From contig NZ_JAPEOB010000001.1 in assembly GCF_026341775.1 (NCBI RefSeq), forward strand, positions 1,798,001-1,862,000: a stretch of DNA of 64,000 bases, read 5' to 3'. The translations under genes were made by a program, and so were the position numbers. Every line of letters begins with the position of its first letter. Positions within the stretch are counted from its first letter, which is position 1. Under the pieces are notes generated by a model that did not search any database, was not told where the DNA came from, and saw only the letters and a program-made list of their open reading frames with translations. Shown here in pieces: positions 10,571 to 45,705 of this stretch. This DNA comes from Streptomyces sp. NBC_00654. GTDB lineage: Bacteria > Actinomycetota > Actinomycetes > Streptomycetales > Streptomycetaceae.

Positions 10571-12010
10571 ATGGCTGCCCTTCAGCTGACGGTCGTGGTG
10601 CCCTGCTTCAACGAGGCCGAAGCGATCGAGACCTTTCACGCCGCGTTGCTCGCCGCGCTCGATCCCCTGGGCGGCAACCTGGAAATCTGCTATGTGGACG
10701 ACGGCAGTACCGACGGGACACGGCTGCTGCTGGGTGGCCTCGCGGCACTCGACACGCGTGTCCGGTACACCGCCTTCAGCCGGAATTTCGGCAAGGAGGC
10801 AGCCATGCTCGCCGGGCTCCGAATGTCCAGGGGCTCCGCGGTCGTCCTGATGGACGCCGACCTCCAGCATCCGCCCGAACTCATTCCCCGCATGCTGGAA
10901 CTGCACCGGCACGGCTACGACCAGGTGATTCCCCGGCGTGACCGGACCGGCGAGGGGGTGCTGCGCAACGCGCTCAGCCACACCTACTACGCGCTGGTCC
11001 GCCACTGCATGGACGTGGAGGTCATCGACGGCTCCGGAGACTTCCGACTGCTGTCACGACGGGCGGTGAACAGTGTGCTGTCGCTCCCGGAGAGCAATCG
11101 GTTCTCGAAGGGGATCTTCTCCTGGATCGGCTTCGAAACGGTCAGCTTCCGGTACCGGAACCGGGAGCGCGCGGCCGGGCAGTCGAAATGGGGAAGCAGA
11201 AGACTGCTGAACTACGGAATCGACGGACTGCTGTCCTTCAACAACCGTCCACTGCGCCTGGCCATCTACACCGGATTCTGGGTCTTCGTCTCGGCGCTCG
11301 TCTATGCCTTGTGGACCGTTGTGAATGTGCTGCTGAACGGCGCGGAGACCCCCGGTTACGCCACTCTCCTCACCGCGGTCGTGGCGCTCAGCGGAATTCA
11401 GCTGGTCACGCTCGGAGTCATCGGGGAATACGTCGGGCGCATCTACCACGAGGCGAAACACCGCCCGCCCTATGTCGTACGGGAGACCGACGAAACATGT
11501 CCTTCGCTGCCGGGAGAGCCAGAACCGGTCGCCACGGGCGAGCTGAGCGACATCGCGGCCGACCGGTCGCGCACGATACGGCAGTTCGCCTCCTTCGTAC
11601 TGATCGGCTGCGTGAACACGGCGGTGTATCTGGCCGTCTATTACGTGCTGAACCAATGGATGCCGTATCTGGCCGCCCATGCGGTGGGATTCACGGTCAG
11701 CTTCGTCGGCTCATTCCTGCTCAACTCCTACATCACGGTCGGGACGAAGCCCACCTGGCGGGGGTTCGTGCGGTATCCCCTGTCGAGCGTCATCAACCTC
11801 GTGGTGTCGGGCGCTCTGCTGCATCTGGCGGTCAGCGGTCTGGGCGTGGACAAGAACCTCGCCGCCCTGGCCGCCGGCGTACTCGTCACCCCGTTCTCCT
11901 TCCTGCTGGCCCGGTGGGCGATCACCTCGGGCCGGGGCGCTCCCGCACCGCCCGACCGGCCCGACGACAACCGGGCCGAGCCGTCGGTGATCAAGTCGGA
12001 CAGCCACTGA
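10571..12010 (+). CDS. Fused GtrB glycosyltransferase - GtrA membrane protein
   Basis: A 479-residue two-part protein. Residues about 1-315 are a family 2 glycosyltransferase of the GtrB/DPM1 type, with [20 protein letters not shown] and DADLQHPPE, followed by two membrane helices near 230-290. Residues about 330-455 form a four-helix GtrA domain ([16 protein letters not shown]). GtrB moves a sugar from NDP-sugar to polyprenyl phosphate, and GtrA is thought to help flip the lipid-linked sugar. Having both on one chain removes the need for separate genes. The polytopic gene 39 nt downstream may be the final transferase. The cell-surface substrate is unknown. Confidence 0.9.
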
Positions 12011-29881: not shown

Positions 29882-30067
29882 CTACGCGTCCTCGTCGTCC
29901 TCGTCGTCCAGTCGCGCCAGCCAGGTCGCGAGGCGCTCGACGGGCACCTCGAAGTCGGGGTTGAGGTCGACGAACGTACGCAGCTGCTCGGCGAGCCACT
30001 CGAAAGTGACCTCCTCCTCGCCGCGCCGCTTCTCCAGTTCCTCGATGCCACGGTCGGTGAAGTACAA
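29882..30067 (-). CDS. Small DUF6104-like protein
   Basis: A 61-residue acidic protein: MYFTDRGIEELEKRRGEEE, then a helix-rich body (VTFEWLAEQLRTFVDLNPDFE) and a DDEDDEDA tail. It matches my recollection of the DUF6104 family, a short protein conserved in streptomycetes of unknown function. The gene is divergent from the conflict-system genes. The 177 nt between them must hold both promoters. Confidence 0.8.
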   Translation of the reverse strand: MYFTDRGIEELEKRRGEEEVTFEWLAEQLRTFVDLNPDFEVPVERLATWLARLDDEDDEDA

Positions 30068-30244: not shown

Positions 30245-30601
30245 GTGAGTGGTCGTGTCCGTCGTATCGATCTCGGTGACGGCAAGATCGTCTATGCCAG
30301 GGTCAGCGCGGCCGAGGGGTACGGGTCGTCCGACCGGGACGTCGGCGTGGCCGACGCCGCCGCGGCCAGACTGGAGCAGCTCAACGAGCTGATCGCCCGG
30401 GTCGGCGGCACGGTCCTGGACGCCGCGGCCGCGGTCAAGCCGCACGAGGCCTCGGTCACCTTCGGGGTGGAGCTGAGCACCAAGTCCGGCAAGGCGCTCG
30501 CCATCCTCGCGGACGGCGAGGCCAAGGCGTCCGTCCAGGTCTCCCTCACCTGGCGGCTGGGCGAGCGGGACCCGGAGGGGCCGGCCGGCACGGATGTCTG
30601 A
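30245..30601 (+). CDS. Trypsin-co-occurring domain 1 (Trypco1, CU044_2847-type) protein
   Basis: A 118-residue protein: a short strand-rich start (VRRIDLGDGKIVYARVS), a helix (LEQLNELIARVGGTVLDAA) and a beta unit (EASVTFGVELSTKSGKALAILADGEAKASVQVSLTW). This is the CU044_2847/Trypco1 pattern, a small domain encoded next to trypsin-like proteases in VMAP-type conflict systems. It may inhibit, present or sense for the protease. The GTG at 30245 follows GGGGGAG closely. It overlaps the protease gene by 8 nt, so expression is coupled. It opens the 11.3-kb system. Confidence 0.82.
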   Translation: MSGRVRRIDLGDGKIVYARVSAAEGYGSSDRDVGVADAAAARLEQLNELIARVGGTVLDAAAAVKPHEASVTFGVELSTKSGKALAILADGEAKASVQVSLTWRLGERDPEGPAGTDV

Positions 30602-32564
30602 CGGCCTTCCCGACCTCGACGCACTCGTCCGGGCGGCCACCGTTCACTTCCTGCCGCCGGAGCCGGGCCAGGACCGGATGTGGGGCAGCGGCTTCTTCGT
30701 CGCGCCCGGCTGGATCCTGACCGCCGCGCATGTGCTCCTCCCCTATGTGCGGGAGGACCGGGACCGGCGCTTCAGGGTGGCCGGTGACCAGCGGCAGCAC
30801 GGCATCGCCCCGGCCCCGGCACGGCTGGAGCAGTGGCTCGTCGGTGACCCGTGGAGCGAGCACATCCCGGCCCAGCGCGATCTGGCCCTGGTGCGGCTGC
30901 TCGACGACACGGTCGAGCACGAGTGCGTTTGGCTCAGCGACCAGATGGTCTCCAGCGGCGGTGACCGGGTGGCGTTCGGTTTCCGGCCGACCCAGGAGGA
31001 GGCCGAGGAGGACATCAGTCCGTACGGGCTCTGGCGCGGCGCGGTCAAGGCGAACGTCGACGACGGGGCGCTCGCCGTCCGGTTCGAGTCCCTGGCCGAA
31101 TTCCCTCCGGGTGTCTCGGGCGGACCGGTACTGGATCCCGCCACCGGCGCCGTGCTGGAGATCGTGAAGTCCGGCCGCGCGGAGCAGGACGGCGGACGGG
31201 CCGTGTCCGCCGCCGCCCTGCGCCGGTTCGGCGTGCTGTACCGCGAGGTCATGGACGCCCATGACCGCTGGCACCACGGCCGCCGGGCCGACACCGGCAG
31301 CTGGACCTCCCACCAGGGCCGGCTCGGCGGCCGGGGCTCCGGCGCCGACGCCGAACAGTGGTCCCCCGAGGACCGGGTGAACGCGCTGAACCACCTCGCG
31401 GGCCTGGCCCCGCCCCTGGAGGGCGATGCCGCGGGGCTCGCCCGCCACGTGCGCAACGAACGGCTGCCGCACACCGTGCCGGCGCCCCTGACCTGGCGCG
31501 ACGGGCACGGGCTGCTCTACCGGGGCGACGGCACCCCGCTCCCGGCGTACGTCTTCATGCACTACCTGCGGCTCGTCGGCGAACTCACCCGCGGCTACGG
31601 GGGCGACACGAGCGGGCTCGACGACTGGCTGGACGGCCGGCTGCGCAGGCTGCCCCCGCACCTGCGGCGGCTGGTGGAACAGGCCCGGCTGCCGGAGAGG
31701 GACAGCACGGAGCGCGTCGTCATCCCCTACCCCGGCCTCGCCGACCCGGCCCACATCGTCGTCGTCGAGCTCGACGAACTGCCCTACGGGACCCTGCACT
31801 GGCAGATCAGGATCGACGACGGCAGCGGTGACCACGAGATCTTCGCCTCGGAGACCGACCCGAACGGTGTGGCGCCCGGCCGCCTCCGCCTCAACCTGCG
31901 CGAACACCTCGCCGAGGCCTTCCAGTTCGCCGATACGGCGGGCGGGGTGCCCGCACCCTGCGAAGTCGTCGTACCCGCCGGGTACTTCGACACCCCCGTA
32001 CACCGGTGGCAGCTCGCCGACGAAGCGCGCCTGGGCGATCCCGCCCATCTTCCGGTCGGGGTGAGACGGCGGATCGTCCTGCGCAACGTGGACCGGCGCG
32101 GGGAGCCGGACGCCCTCTGGTCGGACCGCTGGAGCGCGGCGGCCGGCTGCGGACCGCTCACGGCGAGCCGGGTGCCGCCCGCCGGACAGCCGCCCCGGAG
32201 CAGGCACTTCGCCGAGATACAGCCCTCCGGCATCCCCGTCCTGTGCCATCCCGCGGGCCGGGGCATCGGCCGCAAGGCCATCGAGTTCGCCTTCGACACG
32301 GGCCACGGCATCGCCCTGTGGCGCATCGACGGCCATGACCGGGGCCCCTGCGACAGCGACTGCGAGGACCTGCACAAGGGCGTCGCCGAACTGCTGGCGC
32401 GCACCGAGTCGCTGCCCGAACTCCCCGACCGGCTGCGGCGCATCAGGGAAGAGATCCACGAGACCCGGACGACGGGGCACTGGGCCGAATCCGTCGCCGT
32501 CATGTACGACGACCCCCGCCGCCCGGTGCCGGAGCGACCCGTGGGACCGGTGGACTCACCATGA
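30594..32564 (+). CDS. Trypsin-like serine protease with VMAP domains
   Basis: A 656-residue protein. Residues 1-215 form a trypsin-fold domain with an intact triad: His46 in WILTAAHVL, Asp96 in QRDLALV and Ser175 in PPGVSGGPV. There is no signal peptide, so it acts in the cytoplasm. A helical middle part (about 255-350; YVFMHYLRLVGELTR) resembles the VMAP middle region. The C-terminal 300 residues (strands around HIVVVELDELPYGTLHWQIRI, later WSDRWSAAAGC) resemble VMAP-C. Family knowledge ties VMAP proteins to MoxR ATPases and vWA partners, both encoded next. The protease may be the effector or the activator of the TIR component. Confidence 0.85.
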   Translation: MSDGLPDLDALVRAATVHFLPPEPGQDRMWGSGFFVAPGWILTAAHVLLPYVREDRDRRFRVAGDQRQHGIAPAPARLEQWLVGDPWSEHIPAQRDLALVRLLDDTVEHECVWLSDQMVSSGGDRVAFGFRPTQEEAEEDISPYGLWRGAVKANVDDGALAVRFESLAEFPPGVSGGPVLDPATGAVLEIVKSGRAEQDGGRAVSAAALRRFGVLYREVMDAHDRWHHGRRADTGSWTSHQGRLGGRGSGADAEQWSPEDRVNALNHLAGLAPPLEGDAAGLARHVRNERLPHTVPAPLTWRDGHGLLYRGDGTPLPAYVFMHYLRLVGELTRGYGGDTSGLDDWLDGRLRRLPPHLRRLVEQARLPERDSTERVVIPYPGLADPAHIVVVELDELPYGTLHWQIRIDDGSGDHEIFASETDPNGVAPGRLRLNLREHLAEAFQFADTAGGVPAPCEVVVPAGYFDTPVHRWQLADEARLGDPAHLPVGVRRRIVLRNVDRRGEPDALWSDRWSAAAGCGPLTASRVPPAGQPPRSRHFAEIQPSGIPVLCHPAGRGIGRKAIEFAFDTGHGIALWRIDGHDRGPCDSDCEDLHKGVAELLARTESLPELPDRLRRIREEIHETRTTGHWAESVAVMYDDPRRPVPERPVGPVDSP

Positions 32565-32691
32565 CGACTTGGCCGGAAATCAGCTTTGGCCGGGCCTTAC
32601 GGGGGTACATTCCCGTGGGCCCATTGCGGGCGTTGCCTGCCCCCGTCGGCCAGAGCGCGGGAAGTCACCGACCGCCGACGAGGAGCGAGAA

Positions 32692-33702
32692 ATGAGCAAC
32701 TGGCTGATTTACCGGGGTGAGGGAGAGCCTGCCCCGGAACGGATCGGCGAGCTTCCGCCCCCGCCGCCCTGGCGCGACTTCACCGGTGAGCCGACCGGAC
32801 TCCCGGTCCCCGGCCCGGACTCCTCGACGAAGCGGCGCCTCGGCGGGCGCCCCCTGCTCCCCGTCCAGGACGAGGACGCGATCCAGCTCATCAACGCCGC
32901 CCTGTATCTCCGGCGGCCGCTCCTGGTGACCGGCGAGCCCGGCTCCGGCAAGAGCACGCTCGCCCACGCCGTCGCCCGGGAGCTGGGCCTGGGCCGGGTC
33001 CTGCAGTGGTCCGTCGTCAGCCGTACGGAACTGAAGCAGGGGCTGTACGAGTACGACGCGATCGGCCGGCTCCAGGACGCCCAGCTCTCCCGCGAACGCG
33101 GCGCGGGCGAGGGCGACATCGGCGAGTACATCAAGCTCGGCCCGCTCGGCACGGCGCTCCTCCCGGCGGAACGCCCGCGGGTGCTGCTCATCGACGAGCT
33201 CGACAAGAGCGACATCGACCTGCCGAACGACCTGCTGAACGTGCTGGAGGAAGGCGAGTTCCGCATCCCCGAACTGGAGCGCACCGCCAAGCGCGAAGGA
33301 CACGCGCCCGTCACCGTCCTGGACGACGACGGCCGCAGTGTGCCCGTCGTCGACGGAAGGGTGCGCTGCCGCGCCTTCCCCTTCGTCGTGATGACGAGCA
33401 ACGGCGAGCGCGACTTCCCCAAGCCCCTGCTGCGCCGCTGCATCCGGCTCAATCTGGAACCACCGCGCAACGAACGGCTCGCCGCGCTGGTGCACGCCCA
33501 CTTCGGGGAGGGCGCGCACGAGGCCAACCGGGACCTCCTGGAGAGCTTCAGCCGGGGCGACGACGAGGGGCTGCGGCCGACCGACGAACTACTCAACGCG
33601 ATCTTCCTCACCCAGCACACCGCACGGGAGGCAGGCAGCCGGCGGGACAGCATCGCCCGGCTGCTGATGCGTCCCCTGGAGCAGCACCCCCAGCAGCGGT
33701 GA
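32692..33702 (+). CDS. MoxR-type AAA+ ATPase
   Basis: A 336-residue ATPase. Walker A is GEPGSGKST (residues 81-89) and Walker B is RVLLIDELDKS, with Asp168 and Glu169. A sensor/arginine-finger region is VMTSNGERDFPKPLLRRC. The 80-residue Pro-rich N-terminus is specific to this class. The family remodels protein complexes, usually with a vWA partner, here the next gene 7 nt downstream. GGAG lies before the ATG. The 127-nt gap from the protease gene holds a weak hairpin (32594-32621) that might modulate expression between the two halves of the operon. Confidence 0.92.
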   Translation: MSNWLIYRGEGEPAPERIGELPPPPPWRDFTGEPTGLPVPGPDSSTKRRLGGRPLLPVQDEDAIQLINAALYLRRPLLVTGEPGSGKSTLAHAVARELGLGRVLQWSVVSRTELKQGLYEYDAIGRLQDAQLSRERGAGEGDIGEYIKLGPLGTALLPAERPRVLLIDELDKSDIDLPNDLLNVLEEGEFRIPELERTAKREGHAPVTVLDDDGRSVPVVDGRVRCRAFPFVVMTSNGERDFPKPLLRRCIRLNLEPPRNERLAALVHAHFGEGAHEANRDLLESFSRGDDEGLRPTDELLNAIFLTQHTAREAGSRRDSIARLLMRPLEQHPQQR

Positions 33703-33709
33703 CGCCGCG

Positions 33710-36700
33710 ATGAACTCCGCCTCCCGCAGGGCAGCCGGCGCTGAGCACGGCGTGCTCACCGCACTGGTCGCCCGGCTCCGGGAGGCCGAATTCAGCACCA
33801 CCGCCGAAGAGGTGGCCGACGCGCTGTGGCTCGCCCGCTGGGTCGGGCCCGCCACCTGGCCGGACGGGCCGCCGGCCGGGGCCGCGGCGGAGCCCCCGCC
33901 CGGCGACCGGGCGACCGGGCCCATCGTCCCGCCGGACCCGGTGGCGCCGCTCGTCCGCCCTCCCGCGGCACCGGCCGAGGGGCGCGCCGCGCTGCGCGCC
34001 CCGGCCACGGGCGGTGAAGGGGCCGGCGGCACCGGCGCGCGGTACGGGGGCTCTCCCGTACGGGTCCCCACCGCGCCCACCCTGCCCGACCCGCTCGCCC
34101 TCCAGCGCGCGCTGCGCCCCCTGCAGCGGTTCCGGCCGCCCGCCCGCCCGGCGGGCGGACTCCTCGACGAGAAGGCCACCGCGCAGCACGCGGCGGAGAC
34201 CGGCCTGACCGTGCCGGTGCTGCGCCCCGCGCGCCGCCGGGTGGCCCGCGCCCAACTGCTCATGGATGTCTCCTCCTCGACCATGGTGTGGGAGCAGACC
34301 CTCGACGAACTGCGGGAGGTCCTCGAACGCGCCGGTGCCTTCCGCGAGGTGCGCGTCCACTATCTGCACGAGGACCCGGACGGCGCCCCGGGCGCCGCCA
34401 CCACGGCCACCGCCGGCCCGGCCGCGCTGTGGCCCCCGGCCCAGCTCACGGACCCCACCGGACGGCAGATCACGCTGCTGCTCAGCGACTGCGCCGGACC
34501 GATGTGGCGCAACGGTGCCATGCACCGGCTGCTCCACCGCTGGGCGGCCGCCATGCCGGTCGCCGTCGTCCAGCCGCTGCCACAGAGGATGTGGCGCAAC
34601 ACCCATCTGCCCGCCCGGCCAGGACTGCTGCGCAGGCCCGAAGGGCCCGCGGGGCGGCTGGAGTTCCTGTCCCCGGGGGAGGCGCCCCGGCACGCGGTGG
34701 CCGTTCCGGTGCTGGCGCCCCACCACCTGTCCCTGGAGACCTGGGCCCGGCTGCTGTCCGGGACCGGCGAGCTGACGCTGCGCGCGGCGGCAGCCTGGGT
34801 CGGCCCGGACCCGCGCCCCGCCCCCGCCCCGGCCCGCCGGGCGGCCGACTTACCGGCCCGGGAACGGGTCCGGGTGTTCCGCCGCCACGCCTCGCCCGCC
34901 GCGGTTCGGCTCGCCCAGTGGCTGACCACCACCCCGCTGGAACTGCCGGTGATGCAGCACCTCCAGCGGGCCATGCTGCCGGACAGCGGCCCCGACGTCC
35001 TCGCGGAAGTGCTGCTCGGAGGGCTGCTCACCCGTCTCGACGGGGGACCCGGCAGCCCCGCCTACGCGTTCCGCGACGGTGTCTGGGGCGAGCTGTACCA
35101 ACGACTGGCACCCGGCGACCCGGATCTGGCGCTCAAGCACCTCTCCCGCTACATCGAGGGGCGCTGGGGGCGCACCGCCCGTAACTTCCCCGCGATGGCG
35201 GTGGCCTATCTGGAAGGCAGCGTGGAGCCGCCCCGGCCACCGGGCGGTTCCCCGGACGACCCGCTGCTGCGGGAGTTCGCCGTCGTCTCCACCCGGGTGC
35301 TGCGCCGCTCGCTGCCCCGGCCCGTCACCGCCGCGACGGAGCACACCGACTCGCCCGGTGAGGCGGCGGAGGAGGCACGGGCACGGCTGGAACGGTTCCG
35401 GCTGCAGGGCACCGCCCGGGATCTGGACGCCGGAATCGCGCTGCTCGGCTCGGCGTCCGGGGCCGAGCGCCGCCGCCCGGAACAGGCCGAGCTGTACGCC
35501 TCCCTGGCCTCGGCGCTCGTCGAGCGGTGGGAGGCACGCAGGCTCGGCGAAGACCTCCAGGGCGCCCTCCAGGCCGCGGAACAGGCCGTGCCCACCGTGA
35601 CCCGGGCCTACCGGACCATGGGCGACGTGCTGGTGAGGATGGCCGAGGAGGTGGCGGCGGCCGGGGCGGACACGGACGCGGTGCCCGGCCGGTACCGGCA
35701 GCGCGCCGCCGCACCGGGGGAGACCGCGGACCCGGACTCCGTACGCTTCCTGCTGCTGGACGACGCACAGCGGGCGCTGGCGGAGGCGGTGGCCGGGGGC
35801 GGTGCGGTCGCCAGGACCGCCGCGATCGTCCGCGCCCGGGTGCTCCAGGAGCTGGCCGGTGACTTCGCGGAGCAGGCCCTGCGGCTGCACAGCCCGCCGC
35901 CCGAAGATCCCCAGGAGTGGTATTCGGCCATGATGCTCCGGTCGATCGGCGTGCTGGACACGCTGGTCGAGGCGGACCCCGTACCGCCCTCGTCGCTGTA
36001 TCTGCGCGGCCGGTCCTACATCATGCTCGCCCGCCGACTGGCGGGGACGACGGACGGCGGACCGGCCACCGACCCGGAGCGGGTACGGGACGCCGCCCGG
36101 CGTGCCCGCGCCGACCTGACCGAGTCGCTGGCCCGGATGGCGCACCTGCTCACGGGCGACCGGGACGGCGAGGAGCCGCGGCACGAGGCCGCCGCGCACT
36201 GGCAGCCCGACCCCGCCGACCTCGTCGACGGCTGGGCCGCGCTGGCGCAGGCCCATGAGCTGGCCTGGACCGGCCTCGACACGGAGACGGGCCTGGTGCA
36301 CGCCCTGCGGGCGCTCACCGAGGCGCGGGCCGCCGCCGAGAACCTGCCGGCCGGCTCCCGGCGCGAACTGCTGATCCTCCGCTGCCTGGAGGCGAAGGCG
36401 TCCATCGAGAGCCGGCGCTTCCACGAGGGCATGGACTCCCCGGACGAGGCGCTCGACCGGGCCGTCGAGGCCTGGGCGGAGGTCTGGTCCCGGACGCCCG
36501 CCGACAGCCCCTGGGAGCCCGGCAACCTCCAGATATACGGCCTCACCCTGCTGCGCCGGGCACAGCAGAACAGGTCCGAGGAGGATCTGCGCGAGACGGT
36601 CCGGCTGCTGCGCCAGTCCGTGGCGGGGACCTCGGAGAACAGCCCGGATCTCGCCGCGCGGAGAATGAACCTGGGCCTGGCGCTGCTGTTCCGCTTCCGG

Positions 36701-37099
36701 CTCGTGGGAGCCCTGGTCGACCTGTACGAGGCCGACTGGATATTGGGAGCCGCGGCCCGCGGGGCCGTCTCGGGCGATGTCGCGGCCTCCGCCCACGCCG
36801 TCCGCGGCCAGGTGGCCCTGGAGCTCGGCCGGGCGGTCGGGGCCGAAGTGCGGTTCACCGAGGCCGCGGCCTACTTCAAGCAGGCCGCGGACCGCGCGCT
36901 CGCCGCCGGATCGCCCGTCATGGCCGCCGCCCATCTGATGGACCGGGCCAGGACGCTGGAGCGGATCGCCGGTCCCGACCGGGCGCTCACCGAATACCAC
37001 CGCGCACTCGCCGTCCTCACCGAGCACGGCGGGGAGCACGGCCGGGTCGCGGACCGGATCAGGGAGAACGTACAGCGCCTCGAATCGGGTGACGTATGA
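33710..37099 (+). CDS. vWA-like / SAV_2336-type protein with TPR-like C-terminus
   Basis: An 1129-residue protein. Residues 1-35 are a helical SAV_2336-type start (LTALVARLREAEFSTTAEEV), and about 45-170 a Pro/Ala linker. Residues about 175-330 are a vWA-like domain with a MIDAS D186-x-S188-x-S190 in LLMDVSSST and a second acidic site (SD260) in TLLLSDCAGPMW. From about 500 to the end the chain is helical and repeat-like, resembling TPR scaffolds. vWA proteins are MoxR substrates or partners. Codon 381 is TTA, the rare bldA-read codon. There is no clear ribosome site, so it probably relies on coupling to the MoxR gene. The stop overlaps the peptide gene by 4 nt (ATGA). Confidence 0.85.
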   Translation: MNSASRRAAGAEHGVLTALVARLREAEFSTTAEEVADALWLARWVGPATWPDGPPAGAAAEPPPGDRATGPIVPPDPVAPLVRPPAAPAEGRAALRAPATGGEGAGGTGARYGGSPVRVPTAPTLPDPLALQRALRPLQRFRPPARPAGGLLDEKATAQHAAETGLTVPVLRPARRRVARAQLLMDVSSSTMVWEQTLDELREVLERAGAFREVRVHYLHEDPDGAPGAATTATAGPAALWPPAQLTDPTGRQITLLLSDCAGPMWRNGAMHRLLHRWAAAMPVAVVQPLPQRMWRNTHLPARPGLLRRPEGPAGRLEFLSPGEAPRHAVAVPVLAPHHLSLETWARLLSGTGELTLRAAAAWVGPDPRPAPAPARRAADLPARERVRVFRRHASPAAVRLAQWLTTTPLELPVMQHLQRAMLPDSGPDVLAEVLLGGLLTRLDGGPGSPAYAFRDGVWGELYQRLAPGDPDLALKHLSRYIEGRWGRTARNFPAMAVAYLEGSVEPPRPPGGSPDDPLLREFAVVSTRVLRRSLPRPVTAATEHTDSPGEAAEEARARLERFRLQGTARDLDAGIALLGSASGAERRRPEQAELYASLASALVERWEARRLGEDLQGALQAAEQAVPTVTRAYRTMGDVLVRMAEEVAAAGADTDAVPGRYRQRAAAPGETADPDSVRFLLLDDAQRALAEAVAGGGAVARTAAIVRARVLQELAGDFAEQALRLHSPPPEDPQEWYSAMMLRSIGVLDTLVEADPVPPSSLYLRGRSYIMLARRLAGTTDGGPATDPERVRDAARRARADLTESLARMAHLLTGDRDGEEPRHEAAAHWQPDPADLVDGWAALAQAHELAWTGLDTETGLVHALRALTEARAAAENLPAGSRRELLILRCLEAKASIESRRFHEGMDSPDEALDRAVEAWAEVWSRTPADSPWEPGNLQIYGLTLLRRAQQNRSEEDLRETVRLLRQSVAGTSENSPDLAARRMNLGLALLFRFRLVGALVDLYEADWILGAAARGAVSGDVAASAHAVRGQVALELGRAVGAEVRFTEAAAYFKQAADRALAAGSPVMAAAHLMDRARTLERIAGPDRALTEYHRALAVLTEHGGEHGRVADRIRENVQRLESGDV
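34850..34852 (+). other. In-frame TTA (bldA) leucine codon
   Basis: This TTA codes Leu381 of the vWA-like protein, in AADLPARE. It is the only in-frame TTA I found in any gene of the window. In Streptomyces the UUA-reading tRNA is developmentally limited, so this codon can delay translation of the system. Confidence 0.85.
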
Positions 37100-37272
37100 C
37101 GTTGCCGCCCGACGACAGCAGCACGCCCCTGCCCTCCTTCGGGTCCCTGGCCGCCCTCGTCGACCGCGGCGGCGCGACCGGACACCCGGTGCTGGACGCG
37201 GTCCTGGCGGGACTGCGCGACCGGTCCGCCGAGTCCGGACCGTGCGTGGCGTACTACGAGGACGCCCCGTGA
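37096..37272 (+). CDS. Candidate FxSxx-type cyclophane RiPP precursor (FxsA-like)
   Basis: A 58-residue ORF between the vWA and radical SAM genes. It overlaps the first by 4 nt (ATGA) and the second by 4 nt (GTGA), a strong sign of a real, co-translated gene. The leader part has LAALVDRGG and GHPVLDAVLAGLRDR, the kind of helical recognition segment found in FxsA peptides. The C-terminus is CVAYYEDAP. Aligning it with the family end (VAG-F-x-S-x-x) puts Tyr54-Glu55-Asp56 at the Phe-x-Ser crosslink site. Three-residue cyclophanes of the aromatic-X2-X3 kind are known. A Tyr/Asp version is my inference. Confidence 0.8.
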   Translation: MTLPPDDSSTPLPSFGSLAALVDRGGATGHPVLDAVLAGLRDRSAESGPCVAYYEDAP

Positions 37273-38507
37273 CGGCGGACACCACGGCGGGCCCCGTTCC
37301 GCACTGGCCGCACCGGGCGCTGGACGCCTCGGACCTGACCCCGGTCCCGCTGCGGCAGTTCGTGCTCAAGGTGCACAGCCGGTGCAACCTCGCCTGCGAC
37401 TACTGCTACATCTACCGCAGCCCCGACACCAGCTGGCGCGAGCGCCCGGCGCGGGTGGCCGAGGAGACCATGGCCCGCACCGCCGACCGCATCGGCGAGC
37501 ACGCCGCCGCCCACGGCCTGGACCGCATCCGGGTCGAACTGCACGGCGGCGAACCCCTGCTGGCGGGCCCCGGGCCGCTGCTCGCGTACACCCGCGCGGT
37601 ACGCCGGGCGGTGCCCGCGGACTGCGAGGTGCTGCCCACCGTGCAGACCAACGGCACGCTGCTGACCGGCGCCGTCCTCGACCGGCTCGGCGACGAGGGC
37701 ATCCGGGTGGGCCTCAGCCTCGACGGCGGGAACGCCCGCCTCAACGGCCGGCGCCCGGGCCACGACGGCCGGCCCTCCTGGCCCGCCGCGTCCCGCGCCG
37801 CCGCCCTGCTCGCCCGGCGCGGCGCGCAGTACGCGGGCATCCTCAGCACGATCGACCTCGCCGGTGACCCGCGGGAGGTCTACACCTCGCTGCTCGCCCT
37901 GGACCCGCCCGGAGTGGACTTCCTGCTGCCGCACGCCAACTGGGGCACGCCCCCGGCGGGGAAGCGGCCCGCCCGCCCCGGACGGCACCGGCCGCATCCG
38001 GCACCGTACGGGCAGTGGCTCGCCGAGGTCTTCGACCTGTGGTGGCACGCGGACGGGCTGCGGACGAGGGTCCGGCTGTTCACGGAGATACTGGCCCTGC
38101 TGCTGGGCAGCCGGAGCACCGCCGAGGCGGTCGGACTCTCCCCGATGGCCGCGATCGTGGTCGACACGGACGGTGCGATCGAGCAGGTCGACTCCCTCAA
38201 GAGCGCCTACGCGGGCGCCCCCGAGACCGGCCTCGACGTCTTCGCCAACTCCTTCGACGAGGCGCTGCGCCACCCCGGAGTCGCGGCACGGCAGCTGGGC
38301 GAACAGGGGCTCGCGCCGGAGTGCCGAGGCTGTCCGGTGCTCCGGGTGTGCGGCGGTGGCAACTACGCGCACCGGTACGCCCCGAACAGCGGCTTTCTGC
38401 ACCCCAGCGTCTACTGTGCCGACCTCGAACACCTCATACGGCACATCGCCCGACGCCTGTGTGACGCGGGAGACAATGGTCACTGTTCGCCAACCTGCCC
38501 TCACTGA
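37269..38507 (+). CDS. FxsB-like radical SAM/SPASM peptide maturase
   Basis: A 412-residue maturase. The radical SAM cluster is C39-x3-C43-x2-C46 (CNLACDYC). GGEPL and TNGTLL follow as SAM-binding strands. A SPASM region has C352-x2-C355-x5-C361, then C383, and three further C-terminal Cys (398, 406 and 410). FxsB enzymes form a C-C bond between an aromatic residue and the third residue's beta carbon (three-residue cyclophane) in the neighbouring peptide. The GTG at 37269 overlaps the peptide stop by 4 nt, with GAGG upstream. The substrate motif is probably YED, not FxS. Confidence 0.92.
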   Translation: MTADTTAGPVPHWPHRALDASDLTPVPLRQFVLKVHSRCNLACDYCYIYRSPDTSWRERPARVAEETMARTADRIGEHAAAHGLDRIRVELHGGEPLLAGPGPLLAYTRAVRRAVPADCEVLPTVQTNGTLLTGAVLDRLGDEGIRVGLSLDGGNARLNGRRPGHDGRPSWPAASRAAALLARRGAQYAGILSTIDLAGDPREVYTSLLALDPPGVDFLLPHANWGTPPAGKRPARPGRHRPHPAPYGQWLAEVFDLWWHADGLRTRVRLFTEILALLLGSRSTAEAVGLSPMAAIVVDTDGAIEQVDSLKSAYAGAPETGLDVFANSFDEALRHPGVAARQLGEQGLAPECRGCPVLRVCGGGNYAHRYAPNSGFLHPSVYCADLEHLIRHIARRLCDAGDNGHCSPTCPH

Positions 38508-38575
38508 GCGAAATCTGACGCACAATCGAAGAGCTTGCGCACAAAGTTGAACACTTGCGTCGAGGGAGTACCGGG

Positions 38576-41557
38576 ATGACGGAGGATTCCGACCACGTCA
38601 CGGTCGTGTTCGCGGGACAGAGTGAGTCCTGGGCCAAATGGGTGGAGGAGGAGTGCGAGACGGCGGGCATCGCCACGAACCTCGTCCGCTGGGACCCCCT
38701 GCGCAAGCCGCCGGAGGGCCGGGCCCTCATTGACCTGCTCGCCGCCCCCGGCCGGGTCCTGCTCGTGCTGGACGACTGGTATCTGCGCTTCGACGCGGGC
38801 CGCTACCGGGCCTGGGCCGATGTGCTCCGGCAGGTGCTCCCCGCCCACCGGACACAGATCGCGGCCATCTCCGTCACCCCGCACAGCCTGCCCGAGGCGG
38901 CACGTGAGCTGGACCCCGTCGGCCTCTACGGGGTGGGGCGCGAGGAGGCCAAGCAGCGCCTGCTGGCCGCCTGCGGGCTCGTCCTGGACCAGCACTCCGG
39001 GGTCGACCTCGACCGGGGGCTGCGCTTCCCGGACGAGCCGCCGCCCGTGTCCAACGTGGAGCGCCGCAACCGCCGCTTCACCGGCCGCCGCCAGGTCCTG
39101 GACCGGGTGCACCGGCTGCTGAACGACCGTACGGCGTCGGCCGCGCAGACCGCCCCCGCGCCGGTGGCGGTGCACGGGGCGGGCGGGATCGGCAAGACCG
39201 AGGTGGCGCGGGAGTACGCGCACCGCTACGCCGGCGAGTACGACGCCATCTGGTGGATCAGGGCCCACACCCCGCTCATGGCGCGCGAGGACTTCGCCGC
39301 ACTCGCCAAGGAGCTGCGCACCGGGGACGGCGACGAACTGCGCGGGCTCATCGCCGCCGCCCAGCGCCGCCTCGCCGCGTCACGGCAGCGCTGGCTCATC
39401 GTGTTCGACGGGGCGGACAGCCCGGACGAGCTGGCCGGACTGCTGCCCAAGGGCCCCGGCCACGTACTGATCACCACGCGCGACACCTCCTGGTCCTCCC
39501 ACGGGGCGGAGCTCGTCGAACTGCCCCGCTTCGAACGCGAGGAGAGCATCGCCTTCGCCTGCCGCCGGGCGCCGAGGATCACGGAGGAGGACGCCGACCG
39601 GCTGGCCGACGTGGTCGAGGACCTGCCGATCCTCATCGACCAGATGGCCGCCTGGCTGGAGGCGTATCCCCTCACCGACGTCGCCCGCTATGTCCAGGAC
39701 ATCCGCGAGGGCGACCCCAACGTCCTGGACGTCATGCCGTCCGGCGGCGAGGCGCAGCGGTTCCAGGCCGTGTGGTCCACCACGCTGAACACCCTCGGCG
39801 AGGACGCGCCGCACGCCCATGAACTCCTCAAGCTGCTGGCCCACTTCTCCGCCGACACCGTGCCGGTCAGCCTGCTCCGGTCGGCCAGGGCCTCCGACCT
39901 GCCCATCCATCTGGCGCGCCTGGTCAGCGAACCCAGCAACTGGAACTCGGCCCTGCGCAGGCTCTCCGAGACCACGTCCATGCGGCTGGAGTACGAGACG
40001 GGCCCGCAGGACGACATCCTCACCGTGGGCACCCTGCGCATGCACCGGCTCTTCCACCGCTTCGTCCGCAGCACCCTGTCGGCCCGCGACCGCAAGCAGG
40101 CGTCCGAGACCGCCTGCCGGGTCCTGGTCGCCGCCGACCCCCGGGACCCGACGTCCCCCCGCCACTGGCAGCGCTACGCCGATCTGATCCCCCATCTGGA
40201 ACCCTCGGGCGCGCTGGAGTCGGCCGACGAGGACGTACGGAGCCTCGTCCTCAACTGCGTCGAGTACCTCCGGATGCGGGGCGAGTACGGCGACGGCTGG
40301 ACGATCACCAGGAAGGCGCTCGAACACTGGCGGGCCGACTCGGGCCCCACCGACCGCACCGTCCTGGTCGCCACCCACCAGTACGCCAACATGCTGCGCA
40401 GGCTGGGACGTTACGCCGACGCCGAGGGCGTCGGACGCGACATCCTCGATCGGCTCTCCACGGACCCGGACGTGCAGGACATCGAGCTGCTGCGGGCCAT
40501 GAACGGCCTCGGCGGCACGCTGACGGCCCTCGGGCGGTACGACGAGGCGCGGTCCCTCTACGAGGACGCCACGGCCCGCGCGGTGCGGAAGCTCGGAGAC
40601 AGCAATGTGCCGCGCACCCTCGCCATCCGCAGCAACCTGGCCCAGGCCATCGCCCTTCAGGGGCGGTACGCGGAGTCCCTGGACCAGCACCGGGCGATCC
40701 TGGAGGCACGTGTCGGGCTGCTCGGCCCCCGTAACGCCCTCACCCTGCTGTCCGCCCTGTACACCGCCTGGACCCTGCGCCTGCTGGGCCGCTACCGCGA
40801 GGCGCTCGTGATCCAGGAGCGCAACACCTGGCTGCACGGCCAGGTGCTCGACCGGGAGCACTCCCAGACCCTCCAGGCCCAGCACAACCTCGCCCTGTGC
40901 CGGCGCAGGGAGGGCGATCTGGAGTACGCCCACGCCATGATGCGCCGGGTCCGCGACAAGGTGACCGGCCGCCGGGGCGGCCACCACCCCGAGACGCTGC
41001 TGATCTCCACCGACTACGCCATGCTGCTGCGGGAGATGGGCCGGTTCGACGAGGCGCTGGAGATCGCCGAGTCGACCGCCCGGCTGTACGCCACCCAGCT
41101 CGGCGAGGACCACCCCTACGCGATCGGCAGCCGGGCCAACCGCGGCGTCGTCCTGCGCGATCTGGGCTATCACAGCTCCGCCCTGGCGATCGGCGAGGAG
41201 ACGACGGAGGGCATGGCGCGCGTGCTCGGCGACGATCACCCCTGGAGCATCGGCTGCGCCCTGAACGCGACCGCCGCACGGGCGGCGACGGGCGACCCGC
41301 AGGGGGCGGTGGACCTCGGCCGCGCCGCGCTGGGACGGGCTCGCGTGGGCATCGGGCTCGGGCACGCCCTCACGGTCGGCCTGGAGGCGGGGCTGGCTCT
41401 GGACCTGCGGGCGGCGGGCCGGACGGAGGAGGCCGGAAAGCTGGCCGACGAGACACTGGGACGGCTCGGTGCCTCCCTCGGGCGGACACACCGCACGGTG
41501 CGCGCGACGGCCGCGGGAGAGCGCCCGTACTGGGACTTCGAGCCCCAGCCGATCTGA
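38576..41557 (+). CDS. TIR - NB-ARC - TPR protein of the FxSxx system
   Basis: A 993-residue protein. Residues about 7-140 are TIR-like (VTVVFAGQSESWAKWVEEE; VLLVLDDWYLRF). Residues about 190-480 form an NB-ARC/STAND NTPase with P-loop GAGGIGKT (Lys207), a Walker-B-like RWLIVFDGAD and a winged-helix segment. About 560-960 are tetratricopeptide repeats (repeated LGRYADAEGVGRDIL-type units). FxSxx-COOH systems often carry a TIR protein and a TPR protein; here both are one chain. The TIR lacks the usual Glu of NADase TIRs in the SxxWCxxE position (AWADVL instead), so its catalytic status is open. The ATG follows GAGGGAG. It is the last gene before a long hairpin. Confidence 0.85.
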   Translation: MTEDSDHVTVVFAGQSESWAKWVEEECETAGIATNLVRWDPLRKPPEGRALIDLLAAPGRVLLVLDDWYLRFDAGRYRAWADVLRQVLPAHRTQIAAISVTPHSLPEAARELDPVGLYGVGREEAKQRLLAACGLVLDQHSGVDLDRGLRFPDEPPPVSNVERRNRRFTGRRQVLDRVHRLLNDRTASAAQTAPAPVAVHGAGGIGKTEVAREYAHRYAGEYDAIWWIRAHTPLMAREDFAALAKELRTGDGDELRGLIAAAQRRLAASRQRWLIVFDGADSPDELAGLLPKGPGHVLITTRDTSWSSHGAELVELPRFEREESIAFACRRAPRITEEDADRLADVVEDLPILIDQMAAWLEAYPLTDVARYVQDIREGDPNVLDVMPSGGEAQRFQAVWSTTLNTLGEDAPHAHELLKLLAHFSADTVPVSLLRSARASDLPIHLARLVSEPSNWNSALRRLSETTSMRLEYETGPQDDILTVGTLRMHRLFHRFVRSTLSARDRKQASETACRVLVAADPRDPTSPRHWQRYADLIPHLEPSGALESADEDVRSLVLNCVEYLRMRGEYGDGWTITRKALEHWRADSGPTDRTVLVATHQYANMLRRLGRYADAEGVGRDILDRLSTDPDVQDIELLRAMNGLGGTLTALGRYDEARSLYEDATARAVRKLGDSNVPRTLAIRSNLAQAIALQGRYAESLDQHRAILEARVGLLGPRNALTLLSALYTAWTLRLLGRYREALVIQERNTWLHGQVLDREHSQTLQAQHNLALCRRREGDLEYAHAMMRRVRDKVTGRRGGHHPETLLISTDYAMLLREMGRFDEALEIAESTARLYATQLGEDHPYAIGSRANRGVVLRDLGYHSSALAIGEETTEGMARVLGDDHPWSIGCALNATAARAATGDPQGAVDLGRAALGRARVGIGLGHALTVGLEAGLALDLRAAGRTEEAGKLADETLGRLGASLGRTHRTVRATAAGERPYWDFEPQPI

Positions 41558-41572
41558 CCCCCGTACCGCACA

Positions 41573-41620
41573 ACGGGCTCCGGCCCCCGCCGATACACAT
41601 CGGCGGGGGCCGGAGCCCGT
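41573..41620. terminator. Perfect 21-bp hairpin, bidirectional terminator
   Basis: Arms 41573-41593 and 41600-41620 pair without mismatch around a 6-nt loop (TACACA). It closes the conflict-system operon and the convergent kgd gene. Confidence 0.9.
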
Positions 41621-41637
41621 GACGGTGGTGCCGCTGG

Positions 41638-44600
41638 TCAGGCCTCGAAGACCTCGGCGACCAGCTGGGCCTGCTCGGCCTGGTGGCGCTTGGCCGAGCC
41701 GACCGCCGGGGACGAGCCGTGCGGCCGCGAGATGCGGCGCAGGCGCTCACCGTGCGGGATGTCGGCGCCGACGGCCAGGTCCAGGTGGTCGATCAGGTTG
41801 AGCGCGATGAACGGCCACGCACCCTGGTTCGCCGGCTCCTCCTGGGCCCAGAGGTACTTCTCGGCGTTCGGGTACTTGGCGATCTCGGCCTGGAGCTCCG
41901 CACCCGGCAGCGGGTACAGGCGCTCCAGCCGGATGATGGCCGTCTCCGTGTCGCCGCGCTTCTCCCGCTCGGCGTCCAGGTCGTAGTACAGCTTGCCCGC
42001 GCAGAAGACGACCTTGCGGACGTCCTCGGGCTTGACCGACGCGTCGCCGATCACCGGACGGAAACCGCCGGTGGTGAACTCCTCGATCTTCGACGCCGCG
42101 GCCTTCAGACGCAGCATCGACTTCGGGGTGAAGACGATCAGCGGCTTGTGGTGCGGGTTGTGCACCTGCCAGCGCAGCAGGTGGAAGTAGTTCGACGGCA
42201 GGGTCGGCATCGCGACCGTCATGTTGTCCTGCGCGCACATCTGGAGGAAGCGCTCCGGGCGGGCGGACGAGTGGTCCGGGCCCTGGCCCTCGTAGCCGTG
42301 CGGCAGCAGCAGCGTGACGCCGGAGGTCTGGCCCCACTTCTGCTCGGCCGAGGAGATGAACTCGTCCACGACGGTCTGCGCGCCGTTGACGAAGTCACCG
42401 AACTGGGCCTCCCAGACGACCAGCGACTCGGGACGGGCCAGCGAGTAGCCGTACTCGAAGCCCATCGCCGCGTACTCGGAGAGCAGCGAGTCGTAGACGT
42501 TGTACCGGGCCTGGTCGTCGGTGAGGTACAGCAGCGGGGTGTAGTCCTCGCCCGTCACCTGGTCGACCAGCACCGCGTGGCGCTGCCCGAACGTGCCGCG
42601 GCGGGTGTCCTGGCCGGCGAGCCGGACCGGGGTGCCCTCCATCAGCAGCGAACCGATGGCGAGCGTCTCGCCCATGCCCCAGTCGATCGTGCCGTTCTCC
42701 ACCGAGGCCGCGCGACGCTGCATCTGCGGCATCAGGCGGGGGTGGACGGTGATCTGCTCGGGGATGTTGACCTGGGACTCGGCGATCCGCTTGACGACCT
42801 CGGCGGAGACCGCCGTGTCGACGGACACCGGGAACGCGGCCTGCGGCTCCGGGACGTGCGGGGCGGGCGGCTGCGAGGTGGCCTCGCGGACCTCCGCGAA
42901 GACCTTCTCCAGCTGACCCTGGAAGTCCTGGAGCGCCTGCTCCGCCTCTTCCAGCGTGATGTCGCCGCGACCGATGAGGGACTCGGTGTAGAGCTTGCGC
43001 ACCGAGCGCTTCTTGTCGATCAGCGTGTACATCTGCGGGTTGGTGAACTCCGGGTTGTCGCCCTCGTTGTGACCGCGGCGGCGGTAGCAGATGAGGTCGA
43101 TCACGACGTCCTTGTTGAACGCCTGCCGGAACTCGAAGGCGAGCCGCGCCACGCGGACCACGGCCTCCGGGTCGTCGCCGTTGACGTGGATGATCGGCGC
43201 CTCGATCATGCGCGCCACGTCGGTGGCGTACATCGAGGAGCGCGAGGACTCCGGGGCGGCGGTGAAGCCGACCTGGTTGTTGATCACCACGTGCACGGTG
43301 CCGCCGGTGCGGTAGCCGCGCAGCTGCGACATGTTGAGCGTCTCGGCGACGACGCCCTGGCCCGCGAAGGCCGCGTCGCCGTGGAGCGCGACGGGCAGGA
43401 CGGTGAAGTCCGTGCCGCCCTTGTTGATGATGTCCTGCTTGGCGCGGGCGATGCCCTCCAGGACCGGGTCGACCGCCTCCAGGTGGGAGGGGTTGGCGGC
43501 CAGCGAGACCTTGATCTGCTCGCCGTCCAGACCGGTGAAGGTGCCCTCGGCGCCCAGGTGGTACTTGACGTCGCCGGAGCCGTGCATGGAGCGCGGGTCG
43601 AGGTTGCCCTCGAACTCGCGGAAGATCTGCGCGTACGACTTGCCGACGATGTTCGCCAGCACGTTCAGCCGGCCGCGGTGGGCCATGCCGATGACGACCT
43701 CGTCGAGGCGGGCCTCGGCGGCGGAGTCGATGACCGCGTCGAGCAGCGGGATGACGGACTCGCCGCCCTCCAGCGAGAACCGCTTCTGGCCGACGTACTT
43801 GGTCTGCAGGAACGTCTCGAACGCCTCGGCGGCGTTCAGCCGGCGCAGGATGCGCAGCTGCTCCTCGCGCTCGGGCTGCTGGGCGCGCGGGCGCTCGACC
43901 CGGTCCTGGAGCCACTTGCGCTGCTTCGGGTCCTGGATGTGCATGAACTCGATGCCGGTGGTGCGGCAGTACGACTCGCGCAGCACCCCGAGGATGTCGC
44001 GCAGCTTCATCATCGACTTGCCGGCGAAGCCGCCGACCGCGAAGTCCCGCTCCAGGTCCCACAGGGTGAGGCCGTGCTCGGTGATGTCGAGGTCGGGGTG
44101 CTTGCGCTGGCGGTACTCCAGCGGGTCGGTGTCGGCCATGACGTGGCCGCGCACCCGGTAGGAGTGGATGAGCTCGAAGACGCGGGCGGCCTTGGTGACG
44201 TCGCTGTCGTGCGAGGCGTCGATGTCCGTGAGCCAGCGGACCGGCTCGTAGGGGATGCGCAGCGCCTTGAAGATCTCGTCGTAGAACTCGTTCTGGCCGA
44301 GCAGCAGCTGGCTCAGGACGCGCAGGAACTCGCCGGAGGCGGCGCCCTGGATGACCCGGTGGTCGTACGTCGAGGTCAGGGTCATGACCTTCGAGATACC
44401 GAGCTTGTTGAGGGTGTCCTGCGAGGTGCCCTGGAACTCCGCCGGGTAGTCCATCGCGCCGACGCCCATGATGAGGCCCTGGCCGGGCATCAGGCGGGGC
44501 ACGGAGTGGACCGTGCCGATGCCGCCGGGGTTGGTCAGCGAGGCGGTGACCCCGGTGAAGTCGTCCATGCCGAGCTTGCCGATGCGGGCACGCCGGACGA

Positions 44601-45447
44601 TGTCCTCGTACGCCTGCCAGAACTCGAAGAAGTTGAGCGTCTCGGCCTTCTTGATGGCCGCGACGACGAGCTGGCGGTCACCGTTGGGCTTCACCAGGTC
44701 GATGGCCAGGCCGAGGTTGATGTGCTCCGGCTTGACCAGGGTCGGCTTGCCGTCCTTGACCGTGAAGGAGTGGTTCATCGACGGCATGGCCTTGAGGGCC
44801 TGCACCATCGCGTACCCGATGAGGTGCGTGAAGGAGATCTTCCCGCCGCGGGCGCGCTTGAGGTGGTTGTTGATGACGATGCGGTTGTCGAAGAGCAGCT
44901 TCACCGGGACGGCGCGGACGGACGTGGCCGTCGGCAGCTCCAGCGAGGCGTTCATGTTCTTCGCGACGGCGGCGGAGGGGCCGCGCAGCGTCACGTACTC
45001 CGGACCCTCCGGGGCCTCGGTCGCCTCGGCGGTCTTCGCCGGGGCCGCGGCGGGCTTCGCGGGGGCGGCCTTCGCCGGGGCTGCCGGAGCAGCGGCGGCG
45101 GGGGCGGCCTTCGCGGGCGCCGGAGCGGCGGCGGCGGGCTGGGCCGGGGCGGCGGGCGCGGCGGCCGGAGCCGGTGCCGCGGGCTGGGCCGGGGCGGTGG
45201 CGACCGGGGCCGGGGTCACCGCGGCCGCGACGTCGGGAAGGGGCTTGTCCGCCGTGCCGGAGGTACCCGGCTTGTAGTCGGCGAAGAAGTCCCACCAGGC
45301 ACGGTCGACCGAACTGGGGTCCTGGAGGTACTGCTGATAGATCTCGTCGACGAGCCACTCATTGGGGCCGAAGGCCGCGGCCGGGTTCCCACCCGGGCTG
45401 GCTTGGTCGGTCGAGATGCTTGAGTTACTGGGGGACTGAGACGACAC
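41638..45447 (-). CDS. kgd: Multifunctional 2-oxoglutarate decarboxylase / dehydrogenase (KGD)
   Basis: A protein of about 1269 residues of the actinobacterial KGD/OdhA type. An E1-type N-terminal strap ([20 protein letters not shown]) is followed by an Ala/Pro linker (residues about 65-130), an E2-like acyltransferase domain with [16 protein letters not shown], and a thiamine-diphosphate E1 domain ([26 protein letters not shown]). It converts 2-oxoglutarate to succinyl products in the TCA cycle and works with E2/E3 of the pyruvate complex. Start: the GTG at 45447 ([10 protein letters not shown]) follows known orthologues. A GTG 24 nt earlier and an upstream ATG at 45498 also exist. No lipoyl domain is seen. 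Confidence 0.93.
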
Positions 45448-45705
45448 GGCGGCAACCGCCCTCTTCCGCTTCACAAGGTGATGGACAGCGGAAATCAAGG
45501 CTACGCCTCCTTGGCCATTCCTTGCAGACCGGGCCGGTCTTCGTCGTGCAAGTCACATCGGAAGGCGGGTTTCGGCGCAGGAAATGGCGGGAAACAACCT
45601 GGGTTCCGCCGCACTTCGGGTACGCAGAGCCGTGGGTACGGCCACCCGACCGTATCCCCTTTATGGAGGACACGGAGAACATGCCCTTCCGGTTCGAACC
45701 CTATG

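Follow-up and report, generated by a model that had tools for sequence, protein, structure and literature searches.

A VMAP-MoxR-vWA operon with a YxD-tail peptide module in a variable slot beside kgd: a candidate conflict system of Streptomyces sp. NBC_00654

Kaur et al. (2020; PMC7159879, here and below as far as its accessible text goes) described VMAP-MoxR-vWA systems that carry a peptide module together with a radical SAM gene, followed downstream by a TIR-AP-ATPase-TPR gene, and found peptide-processing modules in about 20% of actinobacterial VMAP systems. Their FxSxx-type modules pair a radical SAM-SPASM gene with a separate downstream TIR-AP-ATPase-TPR gene; the association of Trypco1 with trypsin also comes from that work, which treats the HEXXH (MPTase) gene as the core of the module and predicted, already in 2020, a function for a modified peptide within VMAP conflict systems. 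Here we describe a related operon in a 64,000-nt stretch of the Streptomyces sp. NBC_00654 genome (contig NZ_JAPEOB010000001.1, positions 1,798,001 to 1,862,000; hereafter the window). Seven genes, all on the + strand, occupy positions 30245-41557 (11.3 kb), and our recomputed reading frames agreed with the gene count and junctions given in an initial annotation of this DNA. We read the locus as a ternary conflict operon (VMAP-MoxR-vWA) like those of Kaur et al., in a version that has a YxD-tail peptide, lacks the HEXXH gene and uses the peptide as an internal component, and we put the probability of this reading at about one half.

The operon begins with Trypco1 (trypsin-co-occurring domain 1; 30245..30601; PF19493 67.1 bits, cut-off 24.6; NF041216 70.5 bits), followed by a trypsin-like protease-VMAP-C fusion (30594..32564; PF20028 VMAP-C 122.7 bits, cut-off 27; PF13365 Trypsin_2 46.9 bits, cut-off 27.6; triad H46, D96, S175), a MoxR AAA+ ATPase (32692..33702, start computed; PF00004 and PF07728 over cut-off; AAA 33.8 bits, cut-off 21.2) and a SAV_2336-type vWA protein with a long C-terminal region (33710..37099; NF041121 SAV_2336_NTERM 428.5 bits, cut-off 200). 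A 58-aa precursor peptide with the tail AYYEDAP comes next (37096..37272; NF041709 69.1 bits, cut-off 55), then an FxsB-family radical SAM/SPASM peptide cyclophane maturase (37269..38507; TIGR04269 418.7 bits, cut-off 370; CX3CX2C at residues 39-46), and last a TIR-NB-ARC-TPR protein (38576..41557; NF040586 FxSxx_TPR 761.6 bits, cut-off 300; NB-ARC and TPR over cut-off; P-loop K207). Only two junctions are longer gaps, of 127 nt upstream of MoxR (recomputed exactly) and of 68 nt upstream of the TIR gene (from the coordinates); the remainder are overlaps or 7 nt, and the vWA, precursor and radical SAM frames are joined by overlaps. Domain searches bore out the initial family names for Trypco1, trypsin-VMAP, MoxR, vWA/SAV_2336, the FxsB-like radical SAM enzyme and the TIR-NB-ARC-TPR protein, and failed to do so for an FxSxx precursor.

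The likeness to the VMAP-ternary FxSxx systems of PMC7159879 extends to the order VMAP, MoxR, vWA, to Trypco1 beside trypsin-VMAP, and to a precursor and radical SAM-SPASM gene with a separate downstream TIR-AP-ATPase-TPR gene; the combination, which had been suggested to be new, was thus already published in that paper. Unlike those systems, the window has a YxD tail, which lies outside their four peptide types, and no MPTase (HEXXH) gene.

The precursor had been placed in an FxSxx-type module. We found that it stayed under the FxSxx cut-off (TIGR04268, 18.2 bits against 28) and passed that of the YxD-tail family NF041709 instead, with a Tyr-Glu-Asp tail like that of YxD-tail cyclophane ribosomally synthesized and post-translationally modified peptides (RiPPs). 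Among 392 same-genus genomes, 15 had a YxD peptide over cut-off, counting that of the window; across the phylum one of 396 did, again that of the window. The core reads mostly A-Y-[Y/H/F]-[E/D]-[D/N] in 67 rows, found with a search pattern that itself required the aromatic residue and the D/N. YxdB joins Tyr C3 to the beta-carbon of Asp (Sugiyama et al. 2022, as summarised in PMC11002830), and triceptide maturases other than YxdB use His, according to the accessible part of the same summary, in which we found no link of YxD-tail RiPPs to VMAP systems. By analogy, the YxD core fits a ring between its second aromatic residue and Asp, as for YxdB; unlike YxdB, the maturase of the window belongs to the FxsB family TIGR04269, and such a ring would be its predicted product.

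We considered and rejected a HEXXH enzyme hidden in the window, as the sole HEXXH motif in its six frames is at 11447 and so not in the operon; the genome has four TIGR04267 matches, all of them outside the window. We also considered the HEXXH gene as a leader protease of the F-type modules, but HEXXH proteins of RiPP clusters now include alpha-ketoglutarate (alphaKG) hydroxylases (PMC12636437, accessible text), and the absence of HEXXH therefore need not mean the absence of cleavage. The alphaKG-dependent HEXXH beta-hydroxylases described there (ChlBH) are probably the family to which the HEXXH gene of the F-type and HEXXH-only versions belongs; the operon of the window differs from ChlBH-type systems in having no such gene.

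We compared the peptide modules of the window and of 118 fetched loci (L059-L176), five of which lie elsewhere in the genome of the window; all were annotated with profiles built from the loci themselves. These held 129 radical SAM rows, of which 122 were distinct, and the named records around the radical SAM relatives were mostly Streptomyces. Where a vWA gene adjoined the module, HEXXH was found in 0 of 53 YxD modules, window included, and in all 13 F-type modules (12 by the distance rule and L173 by hand, since a HEXXH frame was visible there although the rule gave "no HEXXH"). Two loci were left unclassed and outside the 53 and 13, namely L062, in which the vWA gene adjoins the radical SAM gene with no precursor, and L134, a truncated contig with its precursor beyond the distance rule. 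YxD modules without an adjoining vWA gene made up 14 of the 122 distinct rows, none with HEXXH, and 40 radical SAM rows had neither a vWA gene nor a recognised precursor. The gene order of the window recurs in relatives. The initial annotation had named orthologues that are widespread but never occur together as a case against a single system; the genes do occur together, and that case does not apply.

Several further arrangements were observed among these loci. L071, L073, L076, L077, L079, L086, L147 and L154 carry a tandem pair of YxD precursor-radical SAM modules flanking one TIR-NB-ARC-TPR gene, in fetched stretches without kgd. L152, L153, L155 and L166 combine a YxD precursor, a radical SAM gene of a separate clade and an AAA ATPase in stretches without vWA or VMAP, and L152, L155 and L166 additionally have a TIR-NB-ARC-type protein. 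L157 and L158, from the same genome, are two further VMAP-type systems; in L157, the vWA and AP-ATPase-type regions share a single long frame, which has a HEXXH gene on its 3' side.

The operon sits in a slot with fixed borders. On its left is a gene for a DUF6104 small protein (29882..30067, - strand; PF19599 126.8 bits, cut-off 27), with a TTG start whose first base is 30067, and on its right is kgd, of the 2-oxoglutarate dehydrogenase type (41638..45498, - strand; PF00676, PF16870 and others). Most loci lay between DUF4097/PadR and kgd, and kgd fell within the fetched stretch in 44 of 54 Y (YxD-tail) and 14 of 14 F (F-type) loci, with L062 labelled as Y and L097 as F by hand for these counts and for the trees below. 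The C-terminal 400 residues of kgd were found in 150 of 150 same-genus genomes. At 60 sites in same-genus genomes, the slot was empty in 26, held radical SAM plus HEXXH in 13, HEXXH only in 12, YxD/radical SAM only in 3, the VMAP core alone in 2 and other content in 4. These counts are a survey and not a random draw, because the sites were picked by eye, mostly for a kgd closer to that of the window: already fetched sites and too-short contigs were excluded, some eligible rows were left untaken, and L207 and L210 duplicate L124 and L093. That the whole block between DUF6104 and kgd is missing from 26 of the 60 genomes indicates that the block is not a chance assembly, as does the recurrence of its gene order in relatives. 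DUF6104 was present in 57 of 60 surveyed stretches, including all 26 empty ones, in which the DUF4097-kgd gap measured 258-2178 nt; the three stretches without it (L179, L189 and L236) are F-type, and DUF4097 was likewise not reached in them.

When the window was aligned with seven empty sites, similarity ended at 30066 in all seven and resumed at 41630-41640, at the end of kgd. Since 30066 is the second base of the TTG start codon, the insertion replaces the whole upstream region of the DUF6104 gene. Among the genomes listed, four share 97% kgd identity with the window; three of them have an empty slot and the fourth an F-type operon, and such differences at this identity point to recent turnover. 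In L191 and L208, a VMAP core occupies the kgd slot, and a precursor, radical SAM, HEXXH or separate STAND gene was not detected there. L194, L205 and L231 show a reversed PadR-DUF4097 pair and a HEXXH gene near kgd, with no VMAP genes seen.

The HEXXH-only loci (L184, L185, L186, L188, L192, L199, L201, L202, L211, L220, L225 and L226) had no detected radical SAM gene and a separate TIR-NB-ARC-TPR gene. Their precursors keep the leader pattern and bear a Trp-containing tail in 12 of 12 (for example SWPEDAFVD, EFWAEG and TWYSSG), on weak F-type profile matches of 15-34 bits. This version, too, falls outside the four peptide types in the accessible text of PMC7159879.

Trees were built from 52 complete loci (40 Y, 12 F; Trypco1 on 48), the precursor being too short for one. 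The radical SAM, MoxR, TIR-NB-ARC, VMAP, vWA and Trypco1 proteins each showed a single Y/F split with 99-100% support. The kgd tree required six Y/F changes, and a single Y clade was rejected on it (approximately unbiased test, p = 0.00415). Because six genes split once while kgd needs six changes, we conclude that the operon is one unit, exchanged whole. When the second sample was added, the HEXXH-only class formed one group on MoxR and VMAP (99-100%). The proposal of one coupled system has therefore held up, in that its genes co-occur, are present or absent as a block and, for six of them, share one deep split. Judged by these comparisons of sequence, a genome may carry the cassette, lack it or have in its place a complete version with other peptide-modifying enzymes, in the same fixed slot. 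The searches did not support spread on plasmids or phages: radical SAM relatives on plasmids were all <60% identical (11 of 72,556 records, E-value up to 1e-40), and the TIR-NB-ARC-TPR protein had no match in 50,697 phage records at E-values up to 1e-20. Relative to the accessible text of PMC7159879, the fixed slot, the empty sites, the exchange of whole operons and the YxD/HEXXH-less and HEXXH-only classes seem new. Among the matches listed in full-text literature searches, none was an experimental study of an operon of this kind, with most subscription journals outside their scope.

Key residues were examined across relatives. The His-Asp-Ser triad of trypsin-VMAP was found in 55 of 55 aligned VMAPs and in 26 of 26 of the second sample, and the protease looks active, with its triad intact. 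The Walker A and B motifs of MoxR are kept in 58-59 of 59 relatives, and its N-terminal motifs WLIYRG and PPWRDF fit the WxhapG and PsWRxa defined for VMAP-ternary systems (PMC7159879); the second motif was counted in relatives, and its W and R are conserved in 58 and 59 of 59 rows. In the vWA protein, one of three of the SAV_2336 type in this genome, Asp186 and Asp260 of the metal ion-dependent adhesion site (MIDAS) were present in 62 of 66 aligned rows, the other four being gapped there, and residues 491-1129 matched no TPR family at E-values up to 1. The cytoplasmic-type protease, the AAA+/vWA pair and the STAND ATPase all look intact, and their triad, P-loop and MIDAS residues count in favour of the conflict-operon reading. 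The predicted model of Trypco1 had a mean predicted local distance difference test score (pLDDT) of 57.7 and was left out of the fold search.

The product of the last gene carries a TIR fold. TIR_2 was below cut-off (23 versus 28 bits), and the TIR alignment, used as a profile against solved chains, reached a best E-value of 0.44. Trp80 was present in 35 of 35 rows, and residue 84, Leu84 in the window, was Leu in 34 of these and Phe in one, with Leu84 in 29 of 29 more. We take the NADase Glu to be expected four residues after the conserved Trp, as in SARM1 (W638/E642). This TIR is thus probably without the NADase glutamate, and a catalytic role for it is unlikely. The NCBI name FxSxx_TPR already ties the TIR-NB-ARC-TPR protein to these peptide systems.

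From these features, a course of events can be proposed. By family knowledge, the radical SAM enzyme would close a ring in AYYED between its second Tyr and the Asp at the second position after it. As family searches recognised no exporter among the seven genes, we infer that the modified peptide would stay inside the cell, where it may serve the proteins of the operon as ligand or regulator. Trypco1, and VMAP with it, would hold the trypsin-VMAP protease latent, and MoxR-vWA would remodel or time the complex and so set a threshold. The NB-ARC-TPR (STAND) protein would detect invasion, or a given state of the peptide or its loss, and then assemble by way of a TIR that does not act as an enzyme, and the freed protease would then harm the infected hypha. 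This order of sensing, assembly and execution is our inference. No protease domain other than that of trypsin-VMAP was recognised in the operon, and trypsin-VMAP is a candidate that may also cut the peptide leader.

We favour conflict or recognition over housekeeping because of presence/absence and exchange at one site. Several points weigh against the reading as a conflict operon, or against so clean a picture of it. Gain, loss and exchange would also fit kin recognition or any accessory locus, and PADLOC gave weak, partial matches only, so that no PADLOC defence model covers the operon. As the YxD loci form a single Y clade on the radical SAM tree, the correlation between tail and HEXXH approximates one evolutionary event and not 53. 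L224 (tail LWGYNSAL) and L234 (tail end AEYTQSIGNDGR) are radical SAM-plus-HEXXH loci with Tyr in place of Phe, and their tails (GYNSAL and EYTQS) are exceptions to a simple tail rule. On the kgd tree, strongly supported branches alone force two of the six changes. With the second sample added, Y needs two changes on MoxR and three on VMAP, F needs two on TIR-NB-ARC, and the HEXXH-only class has 39% support on TIR-NB-ARC. On a PadR tree (47 rows, quick method), the labels were scattered almost as much as in shuffles, with 19 changes against a shuffled mean of 20.9, as low in 35 of 200 shuffles. Finally, the reading of the TIR residue comes from a motif alignment and not from a superposition.

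Other explanations were weighed against the same evidence. The locus could instead be biosynthetic and yield a small secreted cyclophane natural product or signal, in which case the VMAP, MoxR and TIR-NB-ARC genes would serve regulation or self-protection. The maturase and precursor do lie at its centre, and triceptides are made in E. coli by YxdB and its related maturases (PMC11002830, accessible text), but this is unlikely given that no exporter was recognised among the seven genes, and given the share of the 11.3 kb, most of it, that encodes a protease, an ATPase, a vWA and a STAND protein co-inherited with the maturase, and a tail that varies little across the class (in a search whose pattern demanded the key residues). 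That the peptide module and the VMAP ternary are two independent systems merely sharing a hotspot would account for the 14 YxD-precursor/radical SAM modules without an adjoining vWA and for the two of 60 slots filled by VMAP cores without peptide genes, and related standalone peptide-processing systems exist (PMC7159879). We regard it as the least probable of these explanations, as the VMAP, MoxR, vWA, radical SAM and TIR proteins split once and at the same place in the 52 complete loci, and the vWA, precursor and radical SAM frames overlap.

A locus for hyphal allorecognition (kin discrimination), whose versions would be incompatible when they differ in peptide chemistry, would explain why several versions and an empty state are found at one fixed site and are exchanged between lineages, and the NB-ARC-TPR and TIR parts would suit it; fungal het loci with NLR proteins offer a comparison. 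Presence/absence polymorphism is, however, equally usual for phage defence, and we consider allorecognition on its own quite improbable. More broadly, and tentatively, the kgd-DUF6104 slot may be a polymorphic immune or allorecognition locus of Streptomyces in which the chemistry put on the peptide sets the allele, with receptor, protease and ATPase diverging in step with it and entire operons being swapped by way of the conserved flanks. We hold this to be possible but doubtful. Its proposed alleles would be a YxD tail with radical SAM alone, an F-x-[N/S/D] tail with radical SAM and HEXXH, and a Trp-containing tail with HEXXH alone.

A long GC-rich inverted repeat (41573..41620) is found where the operon and kgd converge and may be a terminator; the fold of 41566-41640 has a free energy of -61.0 kcal/mol. 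The promoter/terminator scan, which needs a T run to call a terminator, listed none, Rfam gave no match at the gathering threshold, and the tRNA scan returned none.

Returning to the operon as a candidate VMAP-MoxR-vWA conflict system, its natural versions and the empty sites in close relatives are ready-made comparisons for the role of the peptide and its ring. The YxD version, which has a single maturase and no HEXXH, offers a simple starting point for reconstitution. Should the peptide turn out to serve as an immune component inside the cell, cyclophane RiPPs would gain a role besides that of secreted antibiotics.

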